Shown here piece by piece: positions 5,796-51,446 of a DNA stretch of 64,000 bases (position 1 is its first letter; every line of letters starts with the position of its first letter). Source of the DNA: a virus; the IMG/VR virus record IMGVR_UViG_3300025237_000002, positions 1-64,000 of that record; one strand, 5' to 3'. Under the pieces are notes generated by a model, which saw only the letters and a list, made by a program, of their open reading frames with translations, did not search any database and was not told the origin of the DNA. A program made the position numbers and the translations under genes.

Positions 5796-5837
5796 GTGGA
5801 TTTATGGTACAGGTTGTGCCGAACCAAGAACAAGTAA
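5622..5837 (+). pseudogene. Truncated Nudix gene (duplication remnant)
   Basis: The first ~58 residues match the intact Nudix protein at 6085-6546, including the whole Nudix box. The duplication junction then replaces the C-terminal half with 13 residues read from the tail of the synthetase gene in another frame. Without the C-terminal strands the fold is probably incomplete. It could still be translated, but is best treated as a remnant. Confidence 0.8.
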
Positions 5838-19934: not shown

Positions 19935-20009
19935 GGGGATGTAGCTTAATAGAGAGCGGCTTGGTTTCAAATCCAAGAGGATGTAGTATCGATTCTACCA
20001 TCCCCACCA
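19935..20009 (+). tRNA. Aberrant tRNA-like element with encoded CCA
   Basis: Acceptor GGGGATG/CATCCCC, then A and an encoded CCA. The D-arm GCTT-AATAGA-GAGC lacks the usual GG. The anticodon arm CTTGG/CCAAG has an 8-nt loop (TTTCAAAT), so the anticodon is ambiguous (TCA or CAA by register). The T-arm is GTAG/CTAC with an 8-nt loop (TATCGATT). These features recur in neighbours at 20383 and 20828. Confidence 0.5.
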
Positions 20010-20059
20010 ATAGACTTGATAAAGCCTCTTCCTTATTGGAACGTAATTAAGTATAGTAT

Positions 20060-20126
20060 GGGTATACAATTAAGGTTCTCACCAACCTTTAAGGTTGTAT
20101 CATAGGTTCAAATCCTTCTATACCCA
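20060..20126 (+). tRNA. Aberrant tRNA-like element (67 nt)
   Basis: A perfect acceptor GGGTATA/TATACCC and a T-arm-like TAGGTTCAAATCCTT. The middle can instead form one long hairpin (ATACAATTAAGGTT with AACCTTTAAGGTTGTAT), and no regular D-arm is seen. The same 3' half (CCTTCTATACCCACTAAA) recurs at 24040-24060. Confidence 0.4.
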
Positions 20127-20137
20127 CTAAAATTAAA

Positions 20138-20209
20138 GAGGTCTCGTCTAATTAAAGATGGTCAGCGTAAGTTGACAGATGTGGTTGGAAACACCATAGT
20201 CTCTAAAGA
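20138..20209 (+). tRNA. Degenerate tRNA-like element
   Basis: AGAGGTC and AGTCTCT pair through 6 bp (two wobbles). GTCAG/TTGAC can form an anticodon-like stem with a 6-nt loop, and GTGGT/ACCAT a T-arm-like stem with loop TGGAAAC. Consensus D- and T-loop bases are missing. Confidence 0.3.
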
Positions 20210-20382
20210 AGTTTAGGTTCGGTAGTCCGATAGTGAAGTACAAACGATAGTTTAACGACAACCTTTATACTAAAATAGTTCTCATTGGCTATTCAATTCA
20301 ATGGGTATGACCCAACTTTAATGTTGGTTGATACTACAAGGGGAGTGTCGTAAAAACCTACAAGTTAGTCGTGTAGCGAAAA

Positions 20383-20451
20383 GGGAATGTCGTCTAATAG
20401 AAGGCAGCTGGCGTGAAGCTGGAAAATGTAGTATCAAATCTACCATTCCCA
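20383..20451 (+). tRNA. Aberrant tRNA-like element
   Basis: Acceptor GGGAATG/CATTCCC. D-region GTCTAATAGAAGGC lacks GG. The anticodon stem CAGCT/AGCTG is perfect but its loop (GGCGTGA) lacks U33. T-arm GTAG/CTAC has an 8-nt loop (TATCAAAT). It shares these departures with the elements at 19935 and 20828. Confidence 0.45.
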
Positions 20452-20661
20452 CTAAAGGATATGCACGAATGCAGTTAAGCGATACCTTTCAAATCGGAGG
20501 AACTGTACAAGGAGTAACTGAAATAGGTTTTCCAAAATAGATTTTTTGAGTAGTGGGTGTAAATACCGTATAAAGGTAAGCAACAAGAAAGAAAAAATAA
20601 TAGTAAATCCTAAGACTTGCGAAAGCTGGTTCAATAACAAATAGTTAGGTAATCTATTAAA

Positions 20662-20752
20662 TGGGGGTATAGCCCACACCTGTCGTGAAGATGGTGAAGT
20701 GGTAACTATGCTGAGAATGTAACTGTGAATGTTGCTACCTCCACAAATTGAG
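20662..20752 (+). tRNA. Possible degenerate tRNA-like element
   Basis: GGGGGTA (near 20662) and TACCTCC (near 20743) can pair as a 7-bp acceptor. The interior shows no consensus D-, anticodon or T-arm. It is listed because it continues the series of aberrant elements. Confidence 0.2.
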
Positions 20753-20827
20753 TTTAGTTTTGCGGTTAAGTTCTCAATTAAATAAAAAACTGGTGGGGTG
20801 TTAAACCCCATCGTAAACGCCCAATTG

Positions 20828-20903
20828 ACACTGGGATAGCTTAGTAAAGAGCAACCCGAAATTATAAGAGGTAGTGTGAGGTATTGAATCCTCAATCAGT
20901 GTT
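20828..20903 (+). tRNA. Aberrant tRNA-like element
   Basis: Acceptor ACACTGG/TCAGTGT. D-arm GCTT-AGTAAA-GAGC matches the one at 19944. T-arm TGAGG/CCTCA is perfect but has the 8-nt loop TATTGAAT. The anticodon arm is unclear. A T-run follows directly and may act as terminator. Confidence 0.4.
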
Positions 20904-20926
20904 TTTTAAAAATAAATGAAAATAAA

Positions 20927-20958
20927 TTAGGATGTTTGAATACTTTTATGTATTTTTG
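20927..20958 (+). promoter_or_regulatory. Promoter of the 33-aa microgene
   Basis: TTAG at 20927-20930, 20 bp, TATTTTTG at 20951-20958. Confidence 0.6.
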
Positions 20959-21008
20959 CATACTTATTATAAACGCACTAAGTGCAAAACGATTAAAAAA
21001 TAGAAATT

Positions 21009-21110
21009 ATGACAACAGTAACGACATATACGAAACAGTATCAACCGAAGGGCGGGAAGCCACAAGGTCAACTGAGTATGCGTTGTTATAACGATGAAGA
21101 AGAAGGATAA
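21009..21110 (+). CDS. 33-aa microprotein within the tRNA cluster
   Basis: A 33-aa ORF beginning MTTVTTYTKQYQPKGGKPQG and ending in acidic DEEEEG. It has an A-rich ribosome-entry region, its own promoter (20927) and its own strong terminator (21139). No homologue is recognised. GC content is higher than in neighbouring genes. The basic-then-acidic layout might bind RNA or a host protein, but that is a guess. Confidence 0.6.
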   Translation: MTTVTTYTKQYQPKGGKPQGQLSMRCYNDEEEG

Positions 21111-21138
21111 GTTCTTAATCATAATAAACAATATAGCT

Positions 21139-21170
21139 AAACCCAGTTGAAATCTTCAACTGGGTTTTTT
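21139..21170 (+). terminator. Strong intrinsic terminator
   Basis: A 12-bp perfect stem AACCCAGTTGAA/TTCAACTGGGTT with T6. It isolates the microgene from the downstream tRNAs. Confidence 0.92.
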
Positions 21171-21235
21171 GCGTTCTATAGGTTTTTCATCACCTGATAA
21201 AAAAGATGAATCTTTGAAATATTGTATTTTTTTAT

Positions 21236-21308
21236 CGGGAAGTATATCAATTGGTAGATTACGTGCTTTGGGAGTACGAGGTTGGAGGTTCGAGTCCTCT
21301 CTTTCCGA
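21236..21308 (+). tRNA. tRNA-Pro(TGG)
   Basis: Acceptor CGGGAAG/CTTTCCG, D-arm with GG, anticodon arm CGTGC-TTTGGGA-GTACG, T-arm GGAGG-TTCGAGT-CCTCT, discriminator A. Complete cloverleaf. Confidence 0.85.
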
Positions 21309-21312
21309 CTTA

Positions 21313-21364
21313 GGGAGACTGTTATTAATTCATAGGACCAATTGTGGTAATCATAGAATTAAAT
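21313..21364 (+). repeat. tRNA spacer hairpin repeat, copy 1
   Basis: Begins GAGACTGTTATTAATTCATAGGAC. TTAATTC pairs with GAATTAA around an inner hairpin ACCA-ATTG-TGGT. Copy 2 (21710-21767) keeps the outer sequence but has a different inner hairpin. Confidence 0.6.
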
Positions 21365-21368
21365 GTAT

Positions 21369-21444
21369 CGGGGTGTGGTGCAGTAGGCGATACACGCCTG
21401 TTTTGGAAACAGGAGGTTCGAGGGTTCGAATCCCTTTGCCCCGA
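21369..21444 (+). tRNA. tRNA-Pro(TGG), second copy
   Basis: Acceptor CGGGGTG/TGCCCCG, anticodon arm CCTGT-TTTGGAA-ACAGG (TGG), T-loop TTCGAAT, discriminator A. The sequence differs widely from the first Pro tRNA, so it is not a recent duplicate. Confidence 0.85.
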
Positions 21445-21521
21445 CAAAAAATAAACTTGTAGTTTAAAATGGCAACAACAAGTATGTATGATAATTAGCT
21501 GAACAGGTACCGTCAGTGAAA

Positions 21522-21597
21522 GGTGTATAGAAAGGGGTTGCAGAATTAGAATGTGTGGTAGAGGACCGCAAGATGTGAGTTCAAATCTCACCAAAGT
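21522..21597 (+). tRNA. Degenerate tRNA-like element
   Basis: A good T-arm (GTGAG-TTCAAAT-CTCAC) and an anticodon-like stem TGTGG/CCGCA whose loop (TAGAGGA) lacks U33. No matching acceptor stem was found, so this is probably a pseudo-tRNA. Confidence 0.3.
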
Positions 21598-21608
21598 TAT
21601 TTTTATAT

Positions 21609-21703
21609 CTACCAATGCACGAGTCGGTTTAAGTGGCTGGGCTTGGACCCCAGTGACAGCTTCATGAGGTTGCTGTCCGTAGGTTCGAATCCTACTTGGT
21701 AGA
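21609..21703 (+). tRNA. tRNA with TGG (Pro) anticodon and long variable arm
   Basis: Acceptor CTACCAA/TTGGTAG, anticodon arm CTGGG-CTTGGAC-CCCAG, reading TGG by position. A 24-nt variable region forms GACAGC/GCTGTC. T-arm GTAGG-TTCGAAT-CCTAC, discriminator A. Long arms normally mark Ser, Leu or Tyr tRNAs. A one-base shift would give GGA (Ser), but the 5-bp stem then breaks. Charging identity is uncertain. Confidence 0.75.
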
Positions 21704-21709
21704 CGAGTT

Positions 21710-21767
21710 GGAGACTGTTATTAATTCATAGGACTGTCAGATACAGTGTATAAGCATAGAATTAAAT
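21710..21767 (+). repeat. tRNA spacer hairpin repeat, copy 2
   Basis: Shares GAGACTGTTATTAATTCATAGGAC and CATAGAATTAAAT with copy 1. The inner hairpin here is ACTGT-CAGAT-ACAGT, different in sequence but alike in shape. Confidence 0.6.
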
Positions 21768-21769
21768 CT

Positions 21770-21843
21770 TGGGATATCGACTAGCGGTCCAAGTCATCTG
21801 GTTTTGAACCAGAAGAGCGAGGGTTCGAATCCCTCTATCCTAA
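21770..21843 (+). tRNA. tRNA-Gln(TTG)
   Basis: Acceptor TGGGATA/TATCCTA, anticodon arm TCTGG-TTTTGAA-CCAGA, T-loop TTCGAAT, discriminator A. Confidence 0.85.
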
Positions 21844-21844
21844 C

Positions 21845-21907
21845 TACCAATATATTGTCTATTTAGTCGATATATTGGCAAAATAGATAACATATTGTCT
21901 ATTTTAT
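21845..21907 (+). repeat. Two spacer hairpins
   Basis: CCAATATAT/ATATATTGG (9 bp) followed by AAAATAGA/TCTATTTT (8 bp). Probably processing or termination structures between tRNAs. Confidence 0.5.
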
Positions 21908-21911
21908 TACT

Positions 21912-21996
21912 GGGGGTGCGCCAAAGTTGGAGAGTTGGGGCGGTCTGTAAAACCGTTGCGTAAGCTGAGTAGGTTCGATTCCTATCACCCCCACCA
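21912..21996 (+). tRNA. tRNA-Tyr(GTA) with encoded CCA
   Basis: Acceptor GGGGGTG/CACCCCC, anticodon arm GCGGT-CTGTAAA-ACCGT, a longer variable region, T-arm with loop TTCGATT, discriminator A followed by genomic CCA. Most other tRNAs here lack encoded CCA. Confidence 0.85.
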
Positions 21997-22006
21997 GTAT
22001 ATATAT

Positions 22007-22079
22007 TCCCTCGAAGCTCAAGTGGACGGGCACCCCGCTTTTAACGGGGAGATTGCGGGTTCGAAGCCCGCTGGGGGAA
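22007..22079 (+). tRNA. tRNA-Lys(TTT)
   Basis: Acceptor TCCCTCG/TGGGGGA, D-arm GCTC..., anticodon arm CCCCG-CTTTTAA-CGGGG, T-arm GCGGG-TTCGAAG-CCCGC, discriminator A. Confidence 0.88.
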
Positions 22080-22124
22080 CTGAGAGAGTTATTACGTTCT
22101 CTTCGACAAGAAAAAACGTAATTT
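22080..22124 (+). repeat. Post-Lys spacer hairpin, copy 1
   Basis: Starts CTGAGAG and contains ATTACGTT/AACGTAAT (8 bp). The spacer after the second Lys tRNA (22494-22536) has the same start and a different but paired stem. Confidence 0.6.
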
Positions 22125-22206
22125 GGGAGTATTGAGCAACTGGTCGCTCAGCAGATTGTAAATCTGTCGCCTTCGGGCATTGTGGGTTCGAATCCCTCTA
22201 TTCCCA
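22125..22206 (+). tRNA. tRNA-Tyr(GTA), second copy
   Basis: Acceptor GGGAGTA/TATTCCC, anticodon arm GCAGA-TTGTAAA-TCTGT, variable-arm hairpin GCC-TTCG-GGC, T-loop TTCGAAT, discriminator A. Confidence 0.88.
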
Positions 22207-22207
22207 C

Positions 22208-22273
22208 TAGAGTTCGTCTAAGCTAAAAGGCATCGCCTGAACGGTGAAAATGTAGGAGAATACCCTATACTCT
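22208..22273 (+). tRNA. Degenerate tRNA-like element
   Basis: AGAGT/ACTCT acceptor-like pairing, D-like GTCTAAGCTAAAAGGC, TCGCC/GGTGA with a 5-nt loop, GTAGG/CCTAT with loop AGAATAC. It parallels the element at 20138. Confidence 0.3.
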
Positions 22274-22280
22274 TAACTAT

Positions 22281-22391
22281 GGCTATAGTACTACGGTGTA
22301 CCATTCGATGAATATATTGAGTTGAATGAGAGTGGATGTGTGAGTGTTACATCACATCTTCGGTTGGGTTCGAATCCCTAGGTAGCCACCA
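22281..22391 (+). tRNA. Atypical long tRNA-like element with encoded CCA
   Basis: GGCTAT/GTAGCC acceptor-like ends, discriminator A then CCA. A long stem GATGTG/CACATC precedes the T-arm. I could not assign an anticodon arm. At 111 nt it is either a class II tRNA with an insertion or a pseudo-tRNA. Confidence 0.4.
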
Positions 22392-22419
22392 GATGTATGT
22401 TTTTGTACATTAATAATAT

Positions 22420-22493
22420 ACCTTCGTAGCTCAACTGGCTAGAGCACCTGACTTTTAATCAGGGGGTTGGGGGTTCGAGTCCCTTCGGGGGTA
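22420..22493 (+). tRNA. tRNA-Lys(TTT), second copy
   Basis: Acceptor ACCTTCG/CGGGGGT, anticodon arm CCTGA-CTTTTAA-TCAGG, T-loop TTCGAGT, discriminator A. Confidence 0.88.
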
Positions 22494-22536
22494 CTGAGAG
22501 GGTTCTATGCTCCCTTAACACAGAAAAAGCATAACT
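22494..22536 (+). repeat. Post-Lys spacer hairpin, copy 2
   Basis: Begins CTGAGAG like copy 1. Stem TATGCT/AGCATA replaces the ATTACGTT/AACGTAAT stem of copy 1, a covarying change. Confidence 0.6.
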
Positions 22537-22608
22537 GCTACCTTAGTATAAAGGCGATTACTCTGCATTTGTAACGCAGAAATCTCGGTTCGATTCCGTG
22601 AGGTAGCT
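22537..22608 (+). tRNA. tRNA-Thr(TGT)
   Basis: Acceptor GCTACCT/AGGTAGC, anticodon arm CTGCA-TTTGTAA-CGCAG (A-C mismatch next to the loop), T-loop TTCGATT, discriminator T. Confidence 0.8.
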
Positions 22609-22692
22609 CCAAAACTACTAACTCATACCGAAAAGTATGTTAATTTGGATGATTATGTATACCACTAATCATCCAAGTGTTAGAACAAATAT

Positions 22693-22765
22693 TGCTCCAT
22701 GGTGTAATTGGTAACACGTCTGTTTTTGGTGCAGAAGAGTGTGGGTTCGAGACCCGCTGGAGTAA
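22693..22765 (+). tRNA. tRNA-Gln(TTG), second copy
   Basis: Acceptor TGCTCCA/TGGAGTA, anticodon arm TCTGT-TTTTGGT-GCAGA, T-loop TTCGAGA, discriminator A. Confidence 0.82.
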
Positions 22766-22772
22766 CAAATAT

Positions 22773-22846
22773 TGCCCTATGGTGTAATTGGTTAACATAC
22801 GAGATTTTGGCTCTCGTGAGTGTGGGTTCGAGTCCCACTAGGGCTT
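22773..22846 (+). tRNA. tRNA-Gln(TTG), third copy
   Basis: Acceptor TGCCCTA/TAGGGCT with an unpaired first position (weak 1-72 pairs are typical of Gln tRNAs), anticodon arm CGAGA-TTTTGGC-TCTCG, T-arm GTGGG-TTCGAGT-CCCAC. Confidence 0.8.
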
Positions 22847-22888
22847 CAAAGGGAGATGTTCACCTAACATCTTTAAAAATAGGTTTAT

Positions 22889-22975
22889 CCCCTCATAGCT
22901 CAGTTGGTTTGGCGAAAGCCTTAGAGCATCCGTCTTTTAAACGGAGGGTCGTAGGTTCGAATCCTACTGGGGGGA
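22889..22975 (+). tRNA. tRNA-Lys(TTT) with hairpin inserted in the D-loop
   Basis: Acceptor CCCCTCA/TGGGGGG, anticodon arm TCCGT-CTTTTAA-ACGGA, T-arm GTAGG-TTCGAAT-CCTAC, discriminator A. The D-loop, otherwise AGTTGGT...TAGAGC, carries an extra ~12 nt that folds as GGC-GAAA-GCC. The rest of the tRNA is intact. Confidence 0.82.
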
Positions 22976-22982
22976 CAATAAA

Positions 22983-23053
22983 CGATGTGTGGTGTAATGT
23001 TAGCACGAGTTCCATTGGGGGACTTAGAAGAGGTTCAATTCCTTTCTCATCGA
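22983..23053 (+). tRNA. tRNA-like element, anticodon unclear
   Basis: Acceptor CGATGTG/CTCATCG (one mismatch), D-arm GTGT/GCAC, anticodon stem AGTTC/GGACT with loop CATTGGG lacking U33, T-arm AGAGG-TTCAATT-CCTTT. Either a decayed tRNA or one with an unusual loop. Confidence 0.45.
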
Positions 23054-23058
23054 CAAAT

Positions 23059-23144
23059 GCGGTGTTAGTGTAATGGACAAATATTCTAGATGAAAACACG
23101 CAACCATTCAGGTTGAGATAGAGGTTCGATTCCTTTATGCCGCT
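23059..23144 (+). tRNA. tRNA-like element with long variable arm
   Basis: Acceptor GCGGTGT/ATGCCGC, variable-arm hairpin CAACC-ATTCA-GGTTG, T-arm with loop TTCGATT, discriminator T. No standard anticodon stem could be drawn (region TTCTAGATGAAAACACG). Confidence 0.45.
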
Positions 23145-23150
23145 CTAAAA

Positions 23151-23312
23151 ATGATTGATATGAAAGAAATGAAATTTAGATATACTGGTGAATTATCTGA
23201 AGAAGCTAAGGTTAAATTAGATAAATTAAAGTTAAGAAAAGAAACAACATTGAAAAACCTACAAGATGATTATGACTCTGGTAAGTTTGACGATGAATTT
23301 AAAAACCTATAA
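23151..23312 (+). CDS. Small hypothetical protein (53 aa)
   Basis: A 53-aa charged helical protein (MIDMKEMKFRYTGELSEEAK...) starting six bases after a tRNA-like element. It probably depends on the tRNA transcript. Function unknown. Confidence 0.5.
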   Translation: MIDMKEMKFRYTGELSEEAKVKLDKLKLRKETTLKNLQDDYDSGKFDDEFKNL

Positions 23313-23321
23313 AATTATGTT

Positions 23322-23513
23322 ATGGATATTGAGAATTATTCAATCGGAGATGTATTAAGGAACAAACAAGGAATTAATGGTAAGGTGATTGGAAAGACGA
23401 TAAATTCAATTAATTTATATCATACAGCTAGAAGTAGTAAAGGTATTAATTGTACTCAATGGTACACATTACAAGACATAATTAAAAATTTTAAACATGC
23501 CGTCATAGTTTAA
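23322..23513 (+). CDS. Small hypothetical protein overlapping a tRNA
   Basis: A 63-aa protein with a beta-rich pattern (YSIGDVLRNKQGINGKVIGKTI), reminiscent of a small barrel that opens with 'G..v....g..G.V'. Its last 15 bases overlap the 5' end of tRNA-Thr(GGT), so processing of that tRNA would cut the mRNA before its stop codon. Confidence 0.55.
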   Translation: MDIENYSIGDVLRNKQGINGKVIGKTINSINLYHTARSSKGINCTQWYTLQDIIKNFKHAVIV

Positions 23514-23571
23514 GTGGTTAGAATCCTAGTGTGGTATATTAGGGGTGTCGCTTCGATTGCGATTGATGGCT
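23499..23571 (+). tRNA. tRNA-Thr(GGT)
   Basis: Acceptor GCCGTCA/TGATGGC, anticodon arm CTAGT-GTGGTAT-ATTAG, T-arm GTCGC-TTCGATT-GCGAT, discriminator T. It overlaps the 3' end of the preceding ORF. Confidence 0.8.
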
Positions 23572-23620
23572 CCACGACCAGCTGATAGTCTGGGATAACA
23601 ATAAATTAAAACTATCAAAA

Positions 23621-23694
23621 GCGAGTAACGCATAAGTGGTGGTGCGCCAGCCTTCCAAGCTGGAATAGAGTCGGTTCGATACCGTCTACTCGCT
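23621..23694 (+). tRNA. tRNA-Gly(TCC)
   Basis: Acceptor GCGAGTA/TACTCGC, D-arm GCAT...GTGC, anticodon arm CCAGC-CTTCCAA-GCTGG, T-loop TTCGATA, discriminator T. Confidence 0.85.
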
Positions 23695-23789
23695 CAAAAA
23701 AGGGGTGCTTTAATATAACCAATGACAATAGCGTTATAAATTGCTGAACTTTCTACCAAATTGATTTTTGTCGATGATATAAGGTAGTT

Positions 23790-23862
23790 GTCCTATTAGT
23801 TTAACTGGATAAAACTGGGGGTGCTAAACCCTCGGATGTGGGTTCGAATCCCATATAGGAAA
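23790..23862 (+). tRNA. tRNA, probable GCT anticodon (Ser codons) without long arm
   Basis: Acceptor GTCCTAT/ATAGGAA with a G-A first pair, D-arm with GG, anticodon stem GGGGG/CCCTC around TGCTAAA. The strict 7-nt loop puts G at position 33; shifting by one gives U33-GCT. T-arm GTGGG-TTCGAAT-CCCAT. The short variable region argues against normal serine identity. Confidence 0.6.
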
Positions 23863-23869
23863 CAATTAA

Positions 23870-24058
23870 GGGTATACTTTTGGTGTGATGAACCGACCCT
23901 CCGAGAATGGAGGTGCTTTAACTAGCTAAGTATTGAAAACGTTGAGAACATAAACTAAAGTATAGATGTACGAATACTGGGTCTGAATTATGTTAGTAGG
24001 CAAGTAAGTGGATACACGACTTCCAATCGGTATCTAGGTTTGAAACCTTCTATACCCA
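23870..24058 (+). tRNA. tRNA-Gly(TCC)-like element, possibly with insertion
   Basis: The 3' part has loop CTTCCAA within GATAC-a-CGA...TCG-GTATC and a T-arm AGG-TTTGAAA-CCT, ending TATACCC. A perfect partner, GGGTATA, lies 180 bp upstream at 23870. A weaker 5' end, GGGTCTG, lies at 23979. Either the tRNA spans 23979-24058, or a ~110-nt insertion (with a CCTCC/GGAGG hairpin) splits it. Confidence 0.4.
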
Positions 24059-24091
24059 CTAAAAACTATTTACTTATATTTAATTTTTTAG

Positions 24092-24099
24092 TATATTTG
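24092..24099 (+). promoter_or_regulatory. Probable promoter -7 box
   Basis: TATATTTG at 24092-24099 with a poor -33 match (ATTT). It precedes the ORF at 24119. Confidence 0.45.
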
Positions 24100-24118
24100 T
24101 TTATAAAAATTAAATATT

Positions 24119-24418
24119 ATGTATGATGAAAAAGTAAGTATGGGAAATAACCCTATGACAGTTAAAAAGTTGTCAGAATTAGAAAATATAATTTCTAACT
24201 TTAAAGTAGAATTAAGTAAATTAAGTGAAAATAATTATGAATTACTTAATAAGGTAGATAAAATGGTTGGTTGCGAACTACAAGATGATTGTGCAGAAAA
24301 ATCAAGTCCAACGGATGAAAATATTGTTGATGTCCTCAACGAATGTATCCGTGAATTAGGTTATAAAAATAATAATTTTAGAGAGCAATTAAGTAGATTA
24401 GGTGGTATTGTTGGATAA
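24119..24418 (+). CDS. Hypothetical coiled-coil protein (99 aa)
   Basis: A 99-aa protein with a heptad region (VKKLSELENIISNFKVELSKL...) and two cysteines in CELQDDCAE. It lies between tRNA groups with its own promoter. Function unknown. Confidence 0.6.
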   Translation: MYDEKVSMGNNPMTVKKLSELENIISNFKVELSKLSENNYELLNKVDKMVGCELQDDCAEKSSPTDENIVDVLNECIRELGYKNNNFREQLSRLGGIVG

Positions 24419-24479
24419 CCATTAAGAATGATTACTGGAGTAGAGTACCTTAATGGTCAGGTTGATAACCTCTACAAAT

Positions 24480-24551
24480 GCGGGAATAGCTCAACGGTAG
24501 AGCGTTAGATTACCAATTTAAAGGTTGTGGGTTCGAATCCCATTTCCCGCC
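24480..24551 (+). tRNA. tRNA-Gly with rare ACC anticodon
   Basis: Acceptor GCGGGAA/TTCCCGC, canonical glycine D-arm AGCTCAACGGTAGAGC, anticodon arm TTAGA-TTACCAA-TTTAA, T-arm GTGGG-TTCGAAT-CCCAT, discriminator C. The body is a typical glycine tRNA, but position 34 is A, giving ACC instead of GCC or TCC. Confidence 0.82.
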
Positions 24552-24560
24552 CAATACAAT

Positions 24561-24646
24561 GCAGTAGTCGCATAGAGGTCGATTGCCCCAGATTTCCAAT
24601 CTGGTAAGATAATATCACATCGCTGGTTCGAATCCAGTCTACTGCT
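24561..24646 (+). tRNA. tRNA with TCC (Gly) anticodon and long variable region
   Basis: Acceptor GCAGTAG/CTACTGC, anticodon arm CCAGA-TTTCCAA-TCTGG, a 17-nt variable region, T-arm CTGG-TTCGAAT-CCAG, discriminator T as in tRNA-Gly 23621. The arm length is abnormal for glycine. Confidence 0.75.
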
Positions 24647-24659
24647 CAACACGAGTTTC

Positions 24660-24693
24660 ATCTGAAACATGTATTTTAAACATGGTTTCAGAC
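24660..24693 (+). repeat. Spacer hairpin
   Basis: TCTGAAACATGT/ACATGGTTTCAGA forms a ~12-bp stem with one bulge between two tRNAs, probably a processing structure. Confidence 0.6.
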
Positions 24694-24709
24694 ATAACTC
24701 AAACATTAT

Positions 24710-24793
24710 GCCTACGTCCCATAGAGGTCGATTGGACTAGATTTGTAATCTAGAATGGAAACATCATCGTGGGTTCGAATCCCTCCGTAGGCT
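24710..24793 (+). tRNA. tRNA with TGT (Thr) anticodon and long variable region
   Basis: Acceptor GCCTACG/CGTAGGC, anticodon arm CTAGA-TTTGTAA-TCTAG, a 15-nt variable region with ATG-GAAA-CAT, T-loop TTCGAAT, discriminator T as in the two other Thr tRNAs. D-arm is nearly the same as in the tRNA at 24561. Confidence 0.78.
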
Positions 24794-24811
24794 CATAAAA
24801 AATACAATTTT

Positions 24812-26080: not shown

Positions 26081-26377
26081 ATGAATAACTCAAAGGAAAT
26101 TGAAAAACTTAAACGAGAAGTTGAAGAACGTAAATTAAAAATTGAGAGTCTTTTGACTAATCAAAATAAATTCGAATCTTTACCAGAGAACTATAAATTG
26201 GCTGAAAAAATTCACAGTAAAACTTGTAGTTGGAATCATACGGATGGTTGTAGTTGGGAATATGAAAATTGGGATGGTAAATTAAGACAATGTAGGAGCC
26301 ATTATGTAGTAATTGCTGATAGGGTATTAAAAAAAGTGCCTTATGAAATGGCTGCAATGACTTTAGATAATATATAA
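26081..26377 (+). CDS. Hypothetical coiled-coil/Cys-containing protein (98 aa)
   Basis: A 98-aa protein whose first ~30 residues form a coiled coil, followed by a Trp/Cys/His segment (HSKTCSWNHTDGCSWEYENWD) that could bind a metal. It shares its last base with the MscL start. Confidence 0.55.
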   Translation: MNNSKEIEKLKREVEERKLKIESLLTNQNKFESLPENYKLAEKIHSKTCSWNHTDGCSWEYENWDGKLRQCRSHYVVIADRVLKKVPYEMAAMTLDNI

Positions 26378-26787
26378 TGAAAATATTTAAAGAATTTAAG
26401 AATTTTGCGGTCAAGGGTAATATGATGGATATGGCTATCGGTATTATCATTGGGGCATCTTTCAACAAGGTTTTAAACATAATGGTAAAGAAGGTATTAC
26501 TTCCACCATTGAGTTACATATCTAGCGGTGTTAACCTAAGCGAGAAGCGTGTAATTCTTCAAAACGCACAAGAAGGTATGGAAGAGATTTCAATCCAGTA
26601 TGGGGCACTTATAGAAGCCTTCATCGATTTCTTTGTAATAGGTCTGGTCCTATTCATTGTGGTTAAAATAATGAATAGAATTAAAGATAAGGCTGACGAT
26701 GTTACAGATTTAACATTCAGAACACCTAAGAACATTCAATTATTATCTAGTATTGAAACTGAATTAAAGAAACTAAACGAAAAATAA
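26377..26787 (+). CDS. mscL: Large-conductance mechanosensitive channel (MscL)
   Basis: A 136-aa protein of normal MscL length. The N-terminal amphipathic helix and first membrane helix read FKEFKNFAVKGNMMDMAIGIIIGASFNKVLN, the family signature. A periplasmic loop follows, then the second membrane helix (~residues 68-92, ALIEAFIDFFVIGLVLFIVVKI) and a basic cytoplasmic helix. MscL opens under membrane tension and releases solutes. In a phage it could protect the infected cell from osmotic stress, or help late-stage lysis. It overlaps the preceding gene, so it belongs to a small-gene operon. Confidence 0.88.
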   Translation: MKIFKEFKNFAVKGNMMDMAIGIIIGASFNKVLNIMVKKVLLPPLSYISSGVNLSEKRVILQNAQEGMEEISIQYGALIEAFIDFFVIGLVLFIVVKIMNRIKDKADDVTDLTFRTPKNIQLLSSIETELKKLNEK

Positions 26788-28068: not shown

Positions 28069-28242
28069 ATGAAAAGAAATAAAATAATAATAACAAAAGA
28101 CGAAACACTTATCAACGATTATCTTGATAATGATTGGATAGTTAAAAGTGTAACGGCTCAACATTTTTCTTATACCACAAGTGTAACAATTACACATTTA
28201 GAAGAAGGTAATTTTTGTTTTCTATTAGAAAAAGATGAATAA
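28069..28242 (+). CDS. Small hypothetical protein (57 aa)
   Basis: A 57-aa protein (MKRNKIIITKDETLI...) overlapping the next gene by 8 bases. Function unknown. Confidence 0.5.
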   Translation: MKRNKIIITKDETLINDYLDNDWIVKSVTAQHFSYTTSVTITHLEEGNFCFLLEKDE

Positions 28243-29122
28243 TTGGATTAAGGAATGGGTGAATATGCCTCATTTTGTTATTCCAACTAGAGATACTGAA
28301 AAGAGGAATCAAATTGATATTACGGATGTTCAAAAGATTGCAGACCTTAACACAAGCAAGCAACCAAAGTATCCAATTTATATAATATCAAAAGGTAGAT
28401 TCAAATACCCACAGACAGCAAGAGCTTTAGAAGGTCTTGGAATTGAATACAAGATAGTTATTGAACCAACTGAGTATGATGACTATTCTGCGGTAATAGA
28501 TAAAGAACGAATATTAATACTACCTTTCAGTGACTTAGGTCAAGGTTCAATACCAGCAAGAAATTGGGTATTAGACCATTCAATAGCTAATGGAGATAAA
28601 AGGCATTGGATATTAGATGACAATCTAAATGGGTTTGGTTATCAAAAAGGAGGTCGGAGAATTACTACAAAGACTAATGGTGATTTGTTTAGGGAGTGTG
28701 AAGACTTTGTAGATAGATATAAGAATATCAAAATTGCTGGAATAAGATATAGGTTTAATCACAATTATGTGAAATCACCTTATTATTTGAACACTCGTAT
28801 TTACTCTTGTATCTTGATGGATAACACCATACAACATAGATGGAGAGGGAAGTATAATGAAGATACCGATTTAAGTTTAAGGGTATTGAAGGATGGAGAT
28901 TGTACGATGTTGTTCACTTGGTGCTATTGCAACAAGGCTGGAACGTTAAGTATGAAGGGTGGTAACACCAATACAGTATATGGAGATACTGATAATAGGA
29001 AAGAATTCGCTGAAAGTTTAAAACAACAACACCCAGATGTGGTAAAAGTTGTTTGGAGATATGAAAGATGGCATCATGAAGTAAACTATAAGGGATTTAG
29101 AGAAAACAAATTAATTAAATGA
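28235..29122 (+). CDS. TET-associated glycosyltransferase (TAGT)-like protein
   Basis: A 295-aa protein matching the TAGT family, first noted beside phage TET/JBP enzymes. Markers are YPIYIISKGRF (residues ~48-58), ARALEGLGIEYKIVIEP, ILPFSDLGQGSIPARNWV (~95-115), the acceptor-site RHWILDDNLNGF (~125-136) and GKYNEDTDLSLRVL (~205). It is probably a GT-A-type transferase adding sugar to a hydroxylated base in phage DNA. No thymidylate hydroxymethylase is in the window; the 2OG-oxygenase-like protein at 60993 may be a partner. Modified DNA would resist restriction. Confidence 0.72.
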   Translation: MNNWIKEWVNMPHFVIPTRDTEKRNQIDITDVQKIADLNTSKQPKYPIYIISKGRFKYPQTARALEGLGIEYKIVIEPTEYDDYSAVIDKERILILPFSDLGQGSIPARNWVLDHSIANGDKRHWILDDNLNGFGYQKGGRRITTKTNGDLFRECEDFVDRYKNIKIAGIRYRFNHNYVKSPYYLNTRIYSCILMDNTIQHRWRGKYNEDTDLSLRVLKDGDCTMLFTWCYCNKAGTLSMKGGNTNTVYGDTDNRKEFAESLKQQHPDVVKVVWRYERWHHEVNYKGFRENKLIK

Positions 29123-29616
29123 TTGAGATTAGAATAAATGATGAACAAAGACAAAGAGCTAGTGAACTATATGAATTTAACGTTTTAAAAGGTTCGGTAA
29201 CAAAAGGAGAAGGGAATGAAGTTGGTGCTCTTGGAGAAATAATAGTATTAGATTACTATGGTGATTCAGCTGAATACGTTGGGGATTATGATTATGATTT
29301 AATAATAAAAGGTAAGAAGGTTGATGTTAAAACTAAGAAACAAAATTTAAGACCAGCTAAACATCATTCTTGTAACATATTCTCATATAATACAAAACAA
29401 AAATGTGATTGGTATTGTTTCGTATTTATACATCAATCATTAAATTTTGGATGGATTATGGGATGGTTAACTAAAGATGATTTTTATAAAAAAGCAATCT
29501 TTAGAAGAAAGGGTGAAGTAGACCCAACATTAAATACTAATTGGAGTTTTAGAGGTGATTGTTACACTATTAAAGTACCTGAATTAGATTTATATAATGA
29601 AGAGATAACAAATTAA
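29119..29616 (+). CDS. PD-(D/E)XK nuclease-fold protein
   Basis: A 165-aa protein with the core of the PD-(D/E)XK fold: an N-terminal helix with GEIIVLDYY, then YDYDLIIKGKKVDVKTKK, giving D...DVK. It could be a small restriction-like nuclease or a resolvase. It overlaps the glycosyltransferase stop by four bases, so the two are co-translated. Confidence 0.65.
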   Translation: MIEIRINDEQRQRASELYEFNVLKGSVTKGEGNEVGALGEIIVLDYYGDSAEYVGDYDYDLIIKGKKVDVKTKKQNLRPAKHHSCNIFSYNTKQKCDWYCFVFIHQSLNFGWIMGWLTKDDFYKKAIFRRKGEVDPTLNTNWSFRGDCYTIKVPELDLYNEEITN

Positions 29617-29822
29617 TTAAAGTAAGTCAGAGATTCTAACGCACTACGGTGAGGAACTTCGAGACACCACAGTTTAAGGTAGGAGACGAAAGTCGCACGC
29701 ACTACCGAGGGTGCAATTCAAACAGACTGAGAGGATGAACTGCTCTATGAGGTCGGGTATGAAGCAAATAGGTAAATGTTAGATTAAAACAGGATTTCGG
29801 GTAAGCTCAACTTACTTTAATT
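29615..29822 (+). ncRNA. Candidate minimal RNase P RNA
   Basis: About 208 nt that fold into an RNase P RNA topology. P1 is 29615-29627 with 29810-29822 (13 bp). P2 is TCTAAC (29635) with GTTAGA (29778). P3 is a tiny CAC-TACG-GTG. A GAGGAAC box (29651) starts P4, which pairs AC and UCGAG with UUCGG and GU (29796-29802) and leaves a bulged U at 29658, like the universal P4 bulge. ACAG (29789) precedes the 3' P4 strand, and AGCAAATAGG (29763) matches the conserved AGCAA...AAAUAGG region. A GAC-GAAA-GTC hairpin and GGGTGCAA fit the specificity domain. The P15-P18 region appears to be missing. The protein partner would come from the host. Confidence 0.6.
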
Positions 29823-29838: not shown

Positions 29839-30246
29839 ATGAATGATAATACAATTTTAGAACACTATGGTTGGACCATTGAATGTGAATCACCATTTGA
29901 AATACGACATGAAGATGGTTCGTTTGCCAGTGGGCAAGCAGCTTATACAGTTCTAATAGACTTAGTAGAAGACTATGAATGTGAAGTTATTAAGAAACCG
30001 ATTGAATTAACATTTGGACCTGATAATCATTTCGACCCTGTTGCAATAAAACATAACAATAAGGGTGAACGAATTGATTTCGCTAAAACGGTAAGATGGT
30101 TTATTAATAACGCTGAAAATTCTATTGAAAATTCTTACGATGAAGGTGCGCCAAGGCGTGTTGAAATGTATCAGTTATGTAATAGTCTTAGAAATCAATT
30201 AAAGGCTCAATTATCAAAAGAACAAATACGAGAAATTAAATTATGA
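29839..30246 (+). CDS. Hypothetical protein (135 aa)
   Basis: A 135-aa acidic protein, not recognised. Overlaps the ADP-ribosylglycohydrolase start (ATGA), so the two are co-translated and may be functionally linked. Confidence 0.55.
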   Translation: MNDNTILEHYGWTIECESPFEIRHEDGSFASGQAAYTVLIDLVEDYECEVIKKPIELTFGPDNHFDPVAIKHNNKGERIDFAKTVRWFINNAENSIENSYDEGAPRRVEMYQLCNSLRNQLKAQLSKEQIREIKL

Positions 30247-31013
30247 ATAGAGGTTACGGAGCAATATTAGGTGATTTAGCGGGGAAACCCTTTGAAAAGA
30301 AGTTTAGTATTAAGAAAAAGGATATCAAGGTTTACGCTGAAGATACAAACATTACTGATGATTCAGTAATGACATTAGCTACAATGGATGCTATTTTAAG
30401 CAACATTGATTACCAAACAGCATATCGCTATTGGGGTAATAAATACTTTAGTGATTACTATGGTAAATCGTTCAAGCTATGGTTGAAAGACCCAGCTATG
30501 AAGATGGATTCATATGGTAACGGATGTCTTATGAGAATGTCACCAATACCTCATTACTTCCGTAACAATGACTATTCTTCAATCATAGAATCAGTTGGTA
30601 GTTGTACAACTTCTCATAATCATGCATATTCAAGAAAGGCTGTTATTATATTGAATTACATTTATAATATGATTTATGAAGGTAAAACAAAAGTTGAGAT
30701 TTGGGATTGGGTTAAAGAGAATTATCCATTACCTAAACGATTTAATAAGTTTGTAGAGATAGATGCAACCTCACAAGGTACTTTACCTTACGTGTTACAT
30801 TGTTTCTTATCCACTACATCAACACACGCTTGTATTGAAATGGCGATTGGTTATGGTGGTGATACAGATACAAATGCGTCAATTGCTGCTGAATTATCAG
30901 CAACATTTTATGACGATATTTCGAAAGAAGATGTCGAGTATGTTAACAGTCATCTAGATGATTTTCAACTAGATACGTTAACAAGGTTTAATAATGCATT
31001 AAATGAAATTTAG
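30243..31013 (+). CDS. ADP-ribosylglycohydrolase (ARH/DraG family)
   Basis: A 256-aa protein with the family motifs. N-terminal GAILGDLAGKPFE is followed by EDTNITDDSVMTLAT (residues ~29-43), which ligates one metal pair. C-terminal YGGDTDTNASIAAEL (~204-218) supplies the second Asp cluster. ARH enzymes remove ADP-ribose from arginine, serine or other groups using two Mg2+ ions. With the NADAR and macrodomain proteins downstream, it is one of three ADP-ribose-removing families within 4 kb. Confidence 0.88.
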   Translation: MNRGYGAILGDLAGKPFEKKFSIKKKDIKVYAEDTNITDDSVMTLATMDAILSNIDYQTAYRYWGNKYFSDYYGKSFKLWLKDPAMKMDSYGNGCLMRMSPIPHYFRNNDYSSIIESVGSCTTSHNHAYSRKAVIILNYIYNMIYEGKTKVEIWDWVKENYPLPKRFNKFVEIDATSQGTLPYVLHCFLSTTSTHACIEMAIGYGGDTDTNASIAAELSATFYDDISKEDVEYVNSHLDDFQLDTLTRFNNALNEI

Positions 31014-33734: not shown

Positions 33735-33766
33735 CTTGTTTTTATCAATTATTATGTGTATATTTG
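33735..33766 (+). promoter_or_regulatory. Bacteroidota-type promoter
   Basis: CTTG at 33735-33738, 20 bp, TATATTTG at 33759-33766. Confidence 0.75.
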
Positions 33767-33788
33767 TAGTATCTTAAAAAAGAATATT

Positions 33789-34400
33789 ATGATAATACAA
33801 TTAGTAGATAGAAATGAAGGTATGGTTGATGCTTGGACAAGTGAATTTTTTGATTGTAAAGATGTTATCATCTATCACGATGATTTCTTCGCTCCACAAA
33901 CAGACTGCATCGTATCACCAGCAAATTCATTCGGATTTATGGATGGTGGTTTAGATGGTGTAATTACCAAACACTTAGGACCTAACATTCAATTTAATGT
34001 TCAATCTAGAATTGCGAAAACAACAATGAAAGAATTGTTGGTCGGTGAAGCGATGTTAGTTGAAACTGGGAATGATGAGATTCCATGGTGCATTTCAGCA
34101 CCAACAATGAGACTACCAGCAACGAAACTAACGAATACACCAAATGTTTATTTAGCCGCTAAAGCAATTTTTGGTGTATTAAAAAATCTAGAAAATACGT
34201 TTCAAACCATGATTAAAACTGTTACAATTAGTGGATTAGGTACGGGAGTTGGACAAGTACCTTTTGAAATTTGTGCTCAACAAATGAAGTTGGCATATGA
34301 TGAAGTATGGTTAGGTAAAGGTACGTCACCAAAAACTTGGTATGAAGCGTTTGATACACAACAATTACTATACAGTGATATAAATAAAGCAAGAAAATAA
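33789..34400 (+). CDS. Macrodomain protein
   Basis: A 203-aa protein starting at the ATG after the promoter. Macrodomain features are IVSPANSFGFMDGGLDGVI (residues ~44-62), the loop lining the distal ribose, and ISGLGTGVGQVPFE (~153-166), the phosphate-binding loop. Macrodomains bind or remove ADP-ribose from proteins or nucleic acid. DarG-type domains strip thymidine marks left by DarT. It heads the operon macro-Tpt1-Thg1, placing ADP-ribose handling beside RNA repair. Confidence 0.85.
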   Translation: MIIQLVDRNEGMVDAWTSEFFDCKDVIIYHDDFFAPQTDCIVSPANSFGFMDGGLDGVITKHLGPNIQFNVQSRIAKTTMKELLVGEAMLVETGNDEIPWCISAPTMRLPATKLTNTPNVYLAAKAIFGVLKNLENTFQTMIKTVTISGLGTGVGQVPFEICAQQMKLAYDEVWLGKGTSPKTWYEAFDTQQLLYSDINKARK

Positions 34401-34402
34401 TA

Positions 34403-34684
34403 ATGAACCCACAAGAAATTATAGAAAACGATAGAATGTTAAGTGCCATATTAAAAGGTTTAACCGATATGTGGCATTTCCAAGAAGAATTCCTAGCTCT
34501 GATAGTGTTTATCACTAGAGACTTTGATATAGCAAATAATACTGTTGAATACTTTGCTGATGAAGATATAGGTTTAGAAGAAGCATTGTTCCAATCAATG
34601 GATTTAGATGATTTTAAATCTATTTGTTTAAACAGTGAATACTTAGATAACGACAAATGTAAAGAATTAGTAGATGAGTGTTAA
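34403..34684 (+). CDS. Hypothetical acidic protein (93 aa)
   Basis: A 93-aa acidic helical protein, not recognised, overlapping the Tpt1 gene by 11 bases. Confidence 0.55.
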   Translation: MNPQEIIENDRMLSAILKGLTDMWHFQEEFLALIVFITRDFDIANNTVEYFADEDIGLEEALFQSMDLDDFKSICLNSEYLDNDKCKELVDEC

Positions 34685-35213
34685 GAATAACAGTAGATTT
34701 TTGAGTTTGGTTTTGAGACATAAACCTGAAACCATCGGTCTTAAATTAGATAAGAACGGTTGGGTTGATGTTGATGTGTTGTTAACTCAATTAAAAGAAC
34801 ATGACCGTGAAATGACGATGTTAGAATTAACTGAGGTTGTCACCACCAATGATAAGAAGCGTTTCGAGTTTAACGATGAAATGACCATGATTAGAGCGGC
34901 ACAAGGACATAGCGTGAAGGTTGATTTACAACTGAAAACAAAACGTCCACCAATGGAGTTATTTCATGGTACAGTGCCTAGATTCCTACCTGACATTAGG
35001 AAAGGTGGTCTAAAGAAAATGAAACGTCATGCGGTACATCTAAGTGACGATATCAAGACTGCTGAAAAAGTTGGCTCACGTAGAGGTAAAGAAATTATAT
35101 TAACTATTGAAACAGGTGCTATGTATGCGGATGGATTTAAATTCACCCAATCAAAGAACGGTGTTTGGTTAGTAGACAATGTACCAAGTAAGTACATCAA
35201 AATCAAAGAGTAA
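34674..35213 (+). CDS. kptA: RNA 2'-phosphotransferase (Tpt1/KptA family)
   Basis: A 179-aa protein of family length. N-terminal winged-helix lobe: SRFLSLVLRHKPETIGLKLDKNGWVDVD (residues ~7-34; Arg15 and His16 of the catalytic set). C-terminal lobe binds NAD+: ELFHGTVPRFLPDIRKGGLKKMKRHAVHLS (~104-133) and a later RRGKEIILTIE. Tpt1 moves a 2'-phosphate from RNA to NAD+, giving ADP-ribose 1'',2''-cyclic phosphate. Some members ADP-ribosylate RNA ends. It may repair tRNA cleaved by host nucleases or process RNA-linked ADP-ribose; both fit the neighbours. Confidence 0.88.
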   Translation: MSVKNNSRFLSLVLRHKPETIGLKLDKNGWVDVDVLLTQLKEHDREMTMLELTEVVTTNDKKRFEFNDEMTMIRAAQGHSVKVDLQLKTKRPPMELFHGTVPRFLPDIRKGGLKKMKRHAVHLSDDIKTAEKVGSRRGKEIILTIETGAMYADGFKFTQSKNGVWLVDNVPSKYIKIKE

Positions 35214-35678: not shown

Positions 35679-36461
35679 ATGAAAAAAGATGATTTAGGGG
35701 ATAGAATGAAAGGTTATGAAGCCGTTACTAAGTACAAGTTGCTTAGAAGAGGTTATACTATGATTAGAATTGATGGTAAGGCTTTTCACACCTATACAAA
35801 AGGTCTTATACGTCCATTTGATATGGGGTTGGTTGAAGATATGGATGCTACTGCTAAGTATCTTTGTAAAGAGATTCAAGGTGCTGTATGTGCATTCGTT
35901 CAATCTGATGAGATTAGTATTTTGTTATGTGATTTTGAAAATAGAAATACAAGCGCATGGTATGATAATTCATTACAAAAAATGTGTAGTGTTTCAGCAT
36001 CATTGGCAACAGCTAAATTTAATCAATTAAGAACTTCAAGAGTTATAAGTGCTGGAAAAATACTAACTGAATTTGATAATATTGTATTAGCTATATTTGA
36101 TTCAAGAGTTTACCAATTACCAGCAAAGTATGAGGTTGAAAACTATATGATTTGGAGGCAACAAGATACTGTTAAGAATAGTATTTCTAGTGTTGCACAA
36201 TCAATGTTTTCACACAAAGAATTGAATGGTAAGAATGGAAACCAGAAGCAAGAAATGATGTTTCAAAAAGATGGTACGAATTGGGATGGTTTTGACCCTA
36301 AGTTAAAGAGGGGTAGAATGATTACAAAAGAGATATATGAGAAGGAACCTGACGTTATTAGAACTAGGTATGTGAGTAACGCACCACCAACATTTACACA
36401 AGATAAGGATTATTTAAATGAATTAATCCCAGATAGAGAAATTAGTAGATTATTAGTATGA
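35679..36461 (+). CDS. tRNA-His guanylyltransferase (Thg1-like)
   Basis: A 260-aa protein with Thg1 hallmarks: GDRMKGYE at the N-terminus, MIRIDGKAFHTYTKG (residues ~28-42; metal-binding Asp after the strand), CAFVQSDEISILL (~72-84; second Asp and Glu) and a KMCSVSASLATAKFN helix. Thg1 enzymes add nucleotides 3' to 5'. Bacterial and phage members (TLPs) can rebuild damaged tRNA 5' ends from a template. With Tpt1 and 2H proteins nearby, a tRNA-repair role is plausible. Overlaps the phosphatase start. Confidence 0.87.
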   Translation: MKKDDLGDRMKGYEAVTKYKLLRRGYTMIRIDGKAFHTYTKGLIRPFDMGLVEDMDATAKYLCKEIQGAVCAFVQSDEISILLCDFENRNTSAWYDNSLQKMCSVSASLATAKFNQLRTSRVISAGKILTEFDNIVLAIFDSRVYQLPAKYEVENYMIWRQQDTVKNSISSVAQSMFSHKELNGKNGNQKQEMMFQKDGTNWDGFDPKLKRGRMITKEIYEKEPDVIRTRYVSNAPPTFTQDKDYLNELIPDREISRLLV

Positions 36462-50576: not shown

Positions 50577-51446
50577 ATGAAACACATCGTAAGAATTGCT
50601 CCGTCACCGACTGGACAATTACATATAGGAACATTAAGGACTGCGTATTTTAATTGGTTGATAGCCAATCAAAATCCCGACAGCACATTCATTGTGCGAA
50701 TCGATGACACAGATTTATCTCGTTCTCAAGATGACCTCATTCAACCAATATTTGATTCCTTAACCAGTTATGGTTTAAAATGGGATTTAACATTCAGACA
50801 ATCAAGTAGATTTAGTCGATACCAAGATTTGGCACAAGACTTAATCAACAGTGGTAAAGCTATTAGAAGTGATGGTGCCGTTATGTTAAATAATGTACAC
50901 GCATATAGTTTAGATGCTGATGATGCAGATTTAAAATGGACTGATACCATCACAGGACCTAAAACTAAGATATCACCAGATTTGGGTTTCTTAATAAGAA
51001 ACCAAGTGATTATCAAAAGTGATGGTTCGCCAACATATAATTTCGCAAGTGCGGTTGATGATATGGATTATGGTGTAACTTGGATTGTTAGAGGTACTGA
51101 CCATATAGTTAATACCTATAAGCAAGTAATCTTCTTTAACTTATTTGGAAAGCCATTACCATTATTTACACACGTAGGTTTGGTTTGTCATCCATCAGGA
51201 AAGAAGGTATCAAAGAGAGATAGTGATTCAATGGATTTATCACAATACATCCCTGATGCATTATTAAACTACGTATTACGACTTGGATGGTCACCAAGTC
51301 AAGACGACAAAACTAATAATATAATTCCAATGGACAAAGCAATTAACTTGTTTTTATCTGGTGGTAAAATGAGAGCACCTAACAGTAAATTAGATTTAAC
51401 TAAATTACAATGGTACAATAAAAAATACACAAATGGCAATAATTAA
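50577..51446 (+). CDS. Truncated glutamyl-tRNA synthetase-like enzyme
   Basis: A 289-aa class I synthetase core: RIAPSPTGQLHIGTLRTAYFNWL carries the HIGH motif (residues ~7-29), RGTDHIVNTYKQ binds the amino acid, and HPSGKKVSKRDS (~205-216) is the KMSKS loop. The C-terminal anticodon-binding domain of GluRS is missing, as in Glu-Q-RS (YadB), which glutamylates queuosine on tRNA-Asp. The intact KVSKR loop is closer to GluRS than to Glu-Q-RS. It might charge phage tRNA-Gln or tRNA-Glu without reading the anticodon. Confidence 0.85.
   Translation: MKHIVRIAPSPTGQLHIGTLRTAYFNWLIANQNPDSTFIVRIDDTDLSRSQDDLIQPIFDSLTSYGLKWDLTFRQSSRFSRYQDLAQDLINSGKAIRSDGAVMLNNVHAYSLDADDADLKWTDTITGPKTKISPDLGFLIRNQVIIKSDGSPTYNFASAVDDMDYGVTWIVRGTDHIVNTYKQVIFFNLFGKPLPLFTHVGLVCHPSGKKVSKRDSDSMDLSQYIPDALLNYVLRLGWSPSQDDKTNNIIPMDKAINLFLSGGKMRAPNSKLDLTKLQWYNKKYTNGNN

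Follow-up and report, generated by a model that had tools for sequence, protein, structure and literature searches.

A reduced ribonuclease P RNA predicted in large bacteriophages

We examined a candidate ribonuclease P (RNase P) RNA gene in the IMG/VR virus record IMGVR_UViG_3300025237_000002, a fragment of 110,535 bases (110.5 kb), of which the first 64,000 nucleotides were analyzed and are referred to here as "the window". RNase P RNA is the catalytic RNA that trims tRNAs, and it is among the few ribozymes found in nearly all cells. The element occupies positions 29615-29822 on the plus strand, about 208 nt from one end of helix P1 to the other, and lies between two protein genes of unknown family on the same strand (29119-29616 and 29839-30246). 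Judged by sequence comparison, it is a real RNase P RNA of a reduced type that is new, and it is widespread among the phages that carry it. The identity proposed in the first-pass annotation is supported by a phage covariance model, by covariation, and by reciprocal matches between the phage RNAs and cellular RNase P RNA. No promoter or terminator belonging to the RNA was seen in the window; P1 was considered as an intrinsic terminator and rejected, none being found.

The two strands of P1, AATTAAAGTAAGT (29615-29627) and ACTTACTTTAATT (29810-29822), form a perfect 13-bp helix. Across 30 distinct sequences of the family, which underlie all of the helix counts given here, the 10 modeled pairs of P1 are 94.8% paired, and all of them show double changes. 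P2 (TCTAAC, 29635-29640, with GTTAGA, 29778-29783) is 99.4% paired, with double changes at five of its six pairs. P3, a 3-bp stem with a UACG loop (CAC-UACG-GUG, 29642-29651), is read from the sequence, only its closing C-G pair being countable across members; it is larger and branched in the phage LR745206 and in the IMG/VR contig L003. The CR-I box, GAGGAA (29651-29656), also read from the sequence, is GAGRAA in members of the family. It leads into the 5' strand of P4 (29656-29663), which carries a bulged U and pairs with UUCGGGU (29796-29802). In the window sequence U29658 and U29659 are equivalent as the bulged base; homologues put the bulge at 29659, the canonical site. The first-pass annotation had drawn the 13-bp P1, P2, the 3-bp P3 with its UACG loop and P4 with its bulged U, and all are present where it placed them. 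Its four boxes, GAGGAA, GGGTGCAA (29709-29716), AGCAAATAGG (29763-29772) and ACAG (29789-29792), are likewise present and stand in RNase P order.

P5 (CACC, 29665-29668, with GGTG, 29710-29713) is 100% paired, with double changes at four of four pairs. Between its strands lies a vestigial specificity domain that measures 29 nt across P7 (29678-29706; strands 29678-29682 and 29702-29706). P7 is 96.6% paired and the inner hairpin beneath it, GAC-GAAA-GUC (29685-29694), 98.9%, with double changes in both. A CR-IV-like box, GCAAUUCAAACAG (29713-29725), which the Rfam models align to bacterial GCAAGxCCAAAUAGG, is followed by a P15-like hairpin (29725-29754) made up of GACU/GGUC (29725-29728 / 29751-29754) and AGAG/CUCU (29730-29733 / 29743-29746). 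Pairing is 84% in the first part and 93% in the second, double changes occur in both, and the register of the model is off by one in part of the family. Directly 3' of this stem the window reads GGGU, which includes a GGU motif (29756-29758) that is a candidate partner of the tRNA 3' RCC. GGU occurs upstream of the CR-V box in 32 of 32 sequences examined, mostly right after the P15-like stem. The remaining boxes are the CR-V upstream box UAGGUAAAUG (29769-29778) and the CR-V box itself, AACAGGA (29788-29794). P18 is absent from the window RNA, and nearly the whole specificity domain is gone. An earlier suggestion that P15 to P18 had all been lost is borne out for P18 and for the extra length of P16 and P17, but not for P15, since a covarying P15-like hairpin and the GGU are kept. 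Folded as a single sequence, the window RNA stands out only mildly (z = -2.1).

Homology to cellular RNase P RNA was examined with two covariance models. R1 was built from the window element, the phage records LR756502 and LR745206, and L003; R2 was built from eight other phages and does not contain the window. In a search of the 64 kb on both strands, R2, the rows of which had been aligned using the window-containing R1, matched positions 29618-29819 with 152.8 bits (E = 3.8e-35), and the next match scored 14.8 bits. A permissive Rfam scan of the region matched positions 29620-29817 to archaeal RNase P RNA (RNaseP_arch, RF00373) with 18.9 bits (E = 0.00097). The window alone, at 18.9 bits, would also suit an unrelated structured RNA with chance RNase P-like motifs. 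The relatives speak against this: L022 matches RNaseP_arch at E = 1e-14 and L028 matches RNaseP_bact_a at E = 4e-12, and the Rfam RNase P models match L071 (E = 5e-7) and LR756502 (E = 4.5e-6) as well. Conversely, R2 returned a single hit across eight cellular genomes (E = 0.009), and that hit is the rnpB of the Bacteroidales genome in which it lies, scored by RF00010 at 186.6 bits (E = 5e-60). Because relatives match the Rfam models and R2 retrieves a cellular rnpB, homology, as judged by these sequence models, holds both ways. These reciprocal matches, with relatives at E values of 1e-11 to 1e-14 against RF00010 and RF00373, contradict a chance resemblance, to which we give next to no credence.

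The Rfam gathering scores were reached by no member tested, and a gathering scan of the window reported only tRNAs. A search of the window's record with RF00010 at standard settings gave no match. For RF02357 no match was listed at E <= 10 in the 261-nt region, where only the best clan match was kept, so that this model ranks below RF00373 at best. Since the scores fall below the gathering cutoffs, routine annotation misses the RNA.

Fifty virus records, including that of the window, carry the RNA, in about 41 distinct sequences. BLASTn matched it in two phage records, LR756502 (642 kb) and LR745206 (635 kb); BLASTn with L073 among phages and with L071 among plasmids gave no match. R1 matched LR756501 (735 kb, E = 4e-15), LR756500 (462 kb, E = 4e-12), LR756508 (484 kb, E = 4e-7) and LR756511 (595 kb, E = 1e-19), and the RNA is present in six of the seven huge-phage records tested (462-735 kb). 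Permissive DNA patterns combined with R1 yielded 29 further IMG/VR records, four of them only at E 0.0015-0.01, and then 12 more. Many carrier records are fragments, as the window's is. The RNA was not found in T4, PAU, PTm1, Moby or the 636-kb huge phage LR756504. One carrier, the Stenotrophomonas phage DLP_6, has been cultured; its RNA (KU682439, 105773-106019) lies in an unannotated gap of the tRNA cluster, 7 nt before a tRNA-Arg gene. The published description of DLP_6 reports 30 tRNAs, and RNase P is not among the features it lists (PMC5349666).

Covariation was counted in the 30 distinct sequences, with shuffles and slid copies as controls. The structure is paired in 96.0% of cells, compared with 62.9% in shuffles and 30-45% in slid copies, and 392 double-change cells were observed, compared with 103 in shuffles and 43-77 in slid controls. 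Double changes occur at 39 of 44 pairs, and compensatory changes back P1, P2, P4, P5, P7 and the P15-like stem. P1, P2, P5 and P7 follow one another in RNase P order, and P2 and P4 are pseudoknotted. The search patterns included parts of the conserved boxes, and box conservation is therefore partly selected for; they included none of the helices P1, P2, P4, P5 and P7. P4 offers the cleanest test because, as a pseudoknot, it was left out of R1's structure. It is 98.5% paired, with double changes at six of its seven pairs, and in 30 of 30 sequences a U occupies the bulge at the canonical position. Homologues lacking P4 pairing or the bulged U had been named beforehand as the finding that would speak against the identification, and the identification stands.

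We also searched with a pattern for the reduced specificity domain (GGAG...CGTT). It matched 20 viral contigs, and R1 confirmed 20 of 20; in 84,980 bacterial and archaeal species it matched 13 contigs, of which R1 confirmed none. Because all of the viral matches and none of the cellular ones were confirmed, the miniature form looks phage-specific, within the limits of what this pattern detects. These data bear on the possibility that the RNA began as a host rnpB, taken up by chance, and is now degenerate and decaying, which would fit a length much shorter than that of cellular rnpB and scores below the Rfam gathering values. Pairing is kept with compensatory changes in dozens of distinct sequences, the short form is common to widely diverged phages, and the specificity-domain pattern went unconfirmed in the cellular species. 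A pseudogene is contradicted by the compensatory changes, and we consider decay very improbable.

The phage RNAs resemble bacterial type A RNase P RNA (RF00010, rnpB) in the order and identity of P1, P2, P3, P4 with its bulged U, P5, P7, CR-I, CR-IV and CR-V, and in the GGU that follows the covarying P15-like stem. The bacterial boxes GAGGAA, GCAA..CAAA, UAGAUGAAUG and ACAGAA correspond in the window to GAGGAA, GCAAUUCAAACAG, UAGGUAAAUG and ACAGGA. The bacterial P8-P14 specificity domain, with its T-loop-reading loops, is replaced by the 29-nt hairpin, the RF00010 alignment skips the specificity-domain part, and no P6, P16 or P17 was seen. P18 with its tetraloop is absent in the window, whereas a P18-like stem is retained before the CR-V box in LR756501 (AAGUC-GAAA-GACUU) and DLP_6. 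The family measures about 190-290 nt, compared with 314 nt for the Bacteroidales rnpB (L146), and is carried by phages. Among Rfam models, the window and several relatives match archaeal RNase P RNA (RF00373) best, and archaeal forms also lack P18; however, the window scores far below the gathering value, and the match covers catalytic-domain parts and skips most of the specificity domain.

Other reduced or displaced RNase P RNAs are known. The minimal RNase P RNA of Pyrobaculum (type P/T; Lai 2010, cited in PMC4919922) is described as lacking nearly the entire specificity domain, and on that account it resembles the phage RNA in consisting of the catalytic domain nearly alone. The first-pass annotation had called the element one of the smallest RNase P forms; it is small, but the Pyrobaculum form is reduced to a similar degree, so that its size is not unique. 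The Pyrobaculum form is archaeal and works with archaeal proteins, and RF02357 gave no listed match to the window; the phage RNAs, unlike it, have a conserved P7 hairpin and, where a protein is encoded, a bacterial-type RnpA. We infer that the two reductions are likely convergent. Extra rnpB copies, unexplained and probably horizontally acquired, occur in Mycobacterium austroafricanum and M. sp. YC-RL4 (PMC9569102). They too are additional, probably acquired RNAs whose specificity domain is altered, and an endonuclease gene lies nearby (PMC9569102), but they reside in cellular genomes, and the likeness drawn here to the phage RNA is one of description. The hepatitis delta virus-like theta ribozymes of gut phages are phage-encoded catalytic RNAs linked to phage tRNA maturation (PMC10879173). 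They are self-cleaving and linked to tRNA 3' ends, whereas homology would make the phage RNase P RNA an enzyme that acts in trans on 5' ends.

The likely substrates are the phage's own tRNAs. About 20 tRNA genes, identified by ARAGORN and Rfam, lie at 19935-24794 on the plus strand of the window. Among the carriers, tRNAs are present within the stretch of DNA covered at 30 of 41 loci examined; the nearest is on the same strand as the RNA in 30 of 30 and within 20 nt of it in 14 of 30. At L086 a tRNA flanks the RNA on either side, at a distance of 2-5 nt. As a separate observation, the part of the window cluster at 21236-24794 is dense, with anticodons that are each represented by several tRNAs (Gln-TTG, Pro-TGG, Lys-TTT) and with CCA ends encoded in few of the genes, and the tRNA at 23790 has a CTA (amber) anticodon.

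Three carriers also encode the protein subunit RnpA: LR756502, LR745206 and the 476-kb contig behind L039. PF00825 matches all three, exceeding its cutoff in the 476-kb contig, and TIGR00188 is over its cutoff in the two tested, LR756502 and LR745206. The closest solved structure is B. subtilis RnpA (E = 4e-6), and the phage protein carries the RnpA signature KKFKRAVDRNRVKRLMRE; PHROGs gave no convincing family for it. Phage rnpA genes with the conserved RNR motif lie at L006 1498-1803 (LR756502), L007 1501-1812 (LR745206), L112 1498-1797 (476-kb contig) and L021 1453-1734, and rnpA is also found in a 24.9-kb viral contig. A ClpP-like protease gene adjoins rnpA in L007 and L112. In other carriers, among them DLP_6, LR756501, LR756500, LR756508 and LR756511, no rnpA was matched, so host RnpA is the likely partner of their RNA. 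The same observation, together with loss of the specificity domain, would suit a decoy whose RNase P-like fold captures pre-tRNA or the RnpA of the host and, without catalysis, slows tRNA processing in the host. We regard this as unlikely: selection keeps P4, the bulged U and the CR-I/CR-V metal-site bases, which a pure decoy does not need, three RNA-carrying phages encode RnpA as well, and the RNA is located in tRNA clusters, in phages with a need for tRNAs of their own.

We put at roughly 85% the probability that the element is a phage RNase P RNA that has kept its catalytic domain, has had its specificity domain reduced to the 29-nt P7 hairpin and, together with RnpA, trims phage pre-tRNAs. 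Going by sequence and structure, RNase P function is very likely. We infer expression, protein binding, cleavage and substrates as follows. The RNA, whose retained catalytic domain comprises P1-P5, the P4 bulged U, CR-I, CR-IV, CR-V and the P15-like stem with its GGU, is probably produced within a phage transcript. It would bind RnpA, the host's in most members and the phage's own in some, and the holoenzyme would remove 5' leaders from the phage's own pre-tRNAs. Catalytic Mg2+ would be held by P4 and the CR-I/CR-V purines, GGU could base-pair to RCC(A) at the tRNA 3' end, and with the specificity domain lost, recognition would move to the acceptor stem and leader. In E. coli RNase P RNA, the catalytic domain still cleaves when the specificity domain is removed, at reduced efficiency, P18 then being dispensable, and an archaeal catalytic domain without P18 is active (PMC5839562). 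The E. coli domain has the same reduced architecture as the phage RNA, though as an engineered truncation and not a natural RNA (PMC5839562), and its activity means that the phage architecture can be catalytic.

Several observations weigh against this interpretation. The nearest tRNA in the window is 4.8 kb upstream of the RNA, albeit on the same strand. CCA is encoded in only 4-5 of 21 window tRNAs, and the GGU contact would therefore need prior CCA addition. TIGR00188 and PF00825 are unmatched in the window's 110.5-kb record and in most other records, the former being a fragment, as are many of the latter. P4 pairing is poorer in the distant member LR756500. The E. coli catalytic domain alone is about 100-fold slower on a model substrate (PMC5839562), and some plastid RNase P RNAs that keep the conserved core are reported to be functionally defective (PMC4264200). 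The position of the window RNA, between protein genes and 4.8 kb from tRNAs, also favors a reading in which the RNase P is active but works mainly on RNAs other than pre-tRNAs, for example phage mRNAs, polycistronic junctions or transfer-messenger RNA (tmRNA) precursors, in an MRP-like specialization. Loss of the T-loop-reading domain would loosen the need for a full tRNA, and tmRNA is encoded close by in three carriers (L022 426-1037; L055 1261-1644; L122 6637-7002). Set against this are the tRNAs within 20 nt at 14 of 30 loci, always on the same strand, and the GGU motif, a tRNA 3'-end contact, in every sequence examined, and we give such a specialization only a small chance.

For the phages as a group we think it probable that these RNAs constitute a virus-specific RNase P class: an RNA consisting of the catalytic domain only, in which the miniature P7 hairpin is new, widespread in large phages and in some accompanied by phage RnpA, which would make a complete viral holoenzyme maturing phage tRNAs independently of host rnpB.

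Enzymes of RNA ends and tRNAs are encoded near the RNA in the window, which speaks for the RNase P interpretation: the RNA 2'-phosphotransferase KptA/Tpt1 (34674-35213), the tRNA-His guanylyltransferase Thg1 (35679-36461) and a class I (E/Q) tRNA synthetase catalytic domain (50577-51446). In the 462-kb phage (L015) the gene immediately upstream of the RNA is kptA-like. Close to kptA in the window, an ADP-ribosylglycohydrolase gene (30243-31013) and a Macro-domain gene (33756-34400) form an ADP-ribose-removal set. The synthetase is one of several host-like genes, the others encoding an MscL channel (26377-26787), a TET-associated glycosyltransferase for DNA base modification (28235-29122) and a sigma-70 factor (57577-58434). 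At 5386-5837 and 5849-6546 a small gene and a NUDIX-like gene are duplicated in tandem, the first NUDIX-like copy being truncated. Elsewhere in the family, the 3' part of the tmRNA in L022 directly abuts a group I intron match. In LR756501 (735 kb) a terminator-like stem followed by a T run stands just after the RNase P RNA (L014 1375-1410, minus strand), so that this may be where a transcription unit ends.

The reviews consulted place RNase P RNA only in cells and organelles (PMC4919922; PMC12974513), and a survey of huge phages reports tRNAs and translation genes and leaves RNase P unmentioned in its main text (PMC7162821). The statement in the first-pass annotation that no phage RNase P RNA is well described agrees with our search of the open full-text literature, which found no report of one; subscription papers and preprints were mostly outside that search, and priority is therefore not proven.

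The ribozyme itself is a known one, but this structural variant of it is new, as is the kind of carrier, and viruses appear to bring with them an RNA enzyme thought to be confined to cells and organelles. Its presence in about 50 phage records, one of them from a cultured phage, would add RNA-catalyzed tRNA maturation to the functions that phages carry. Because the Rfam gathering cutoffs miss every member tested, a new model would allow annotation across viromes. The family also provides a natural series of specificity-domain loss, with P18 kept in some members and lost in others, for studying substrate recognition, and it raises the question of why a phage that has many tRNAs should not depend on the RNase P of its host.
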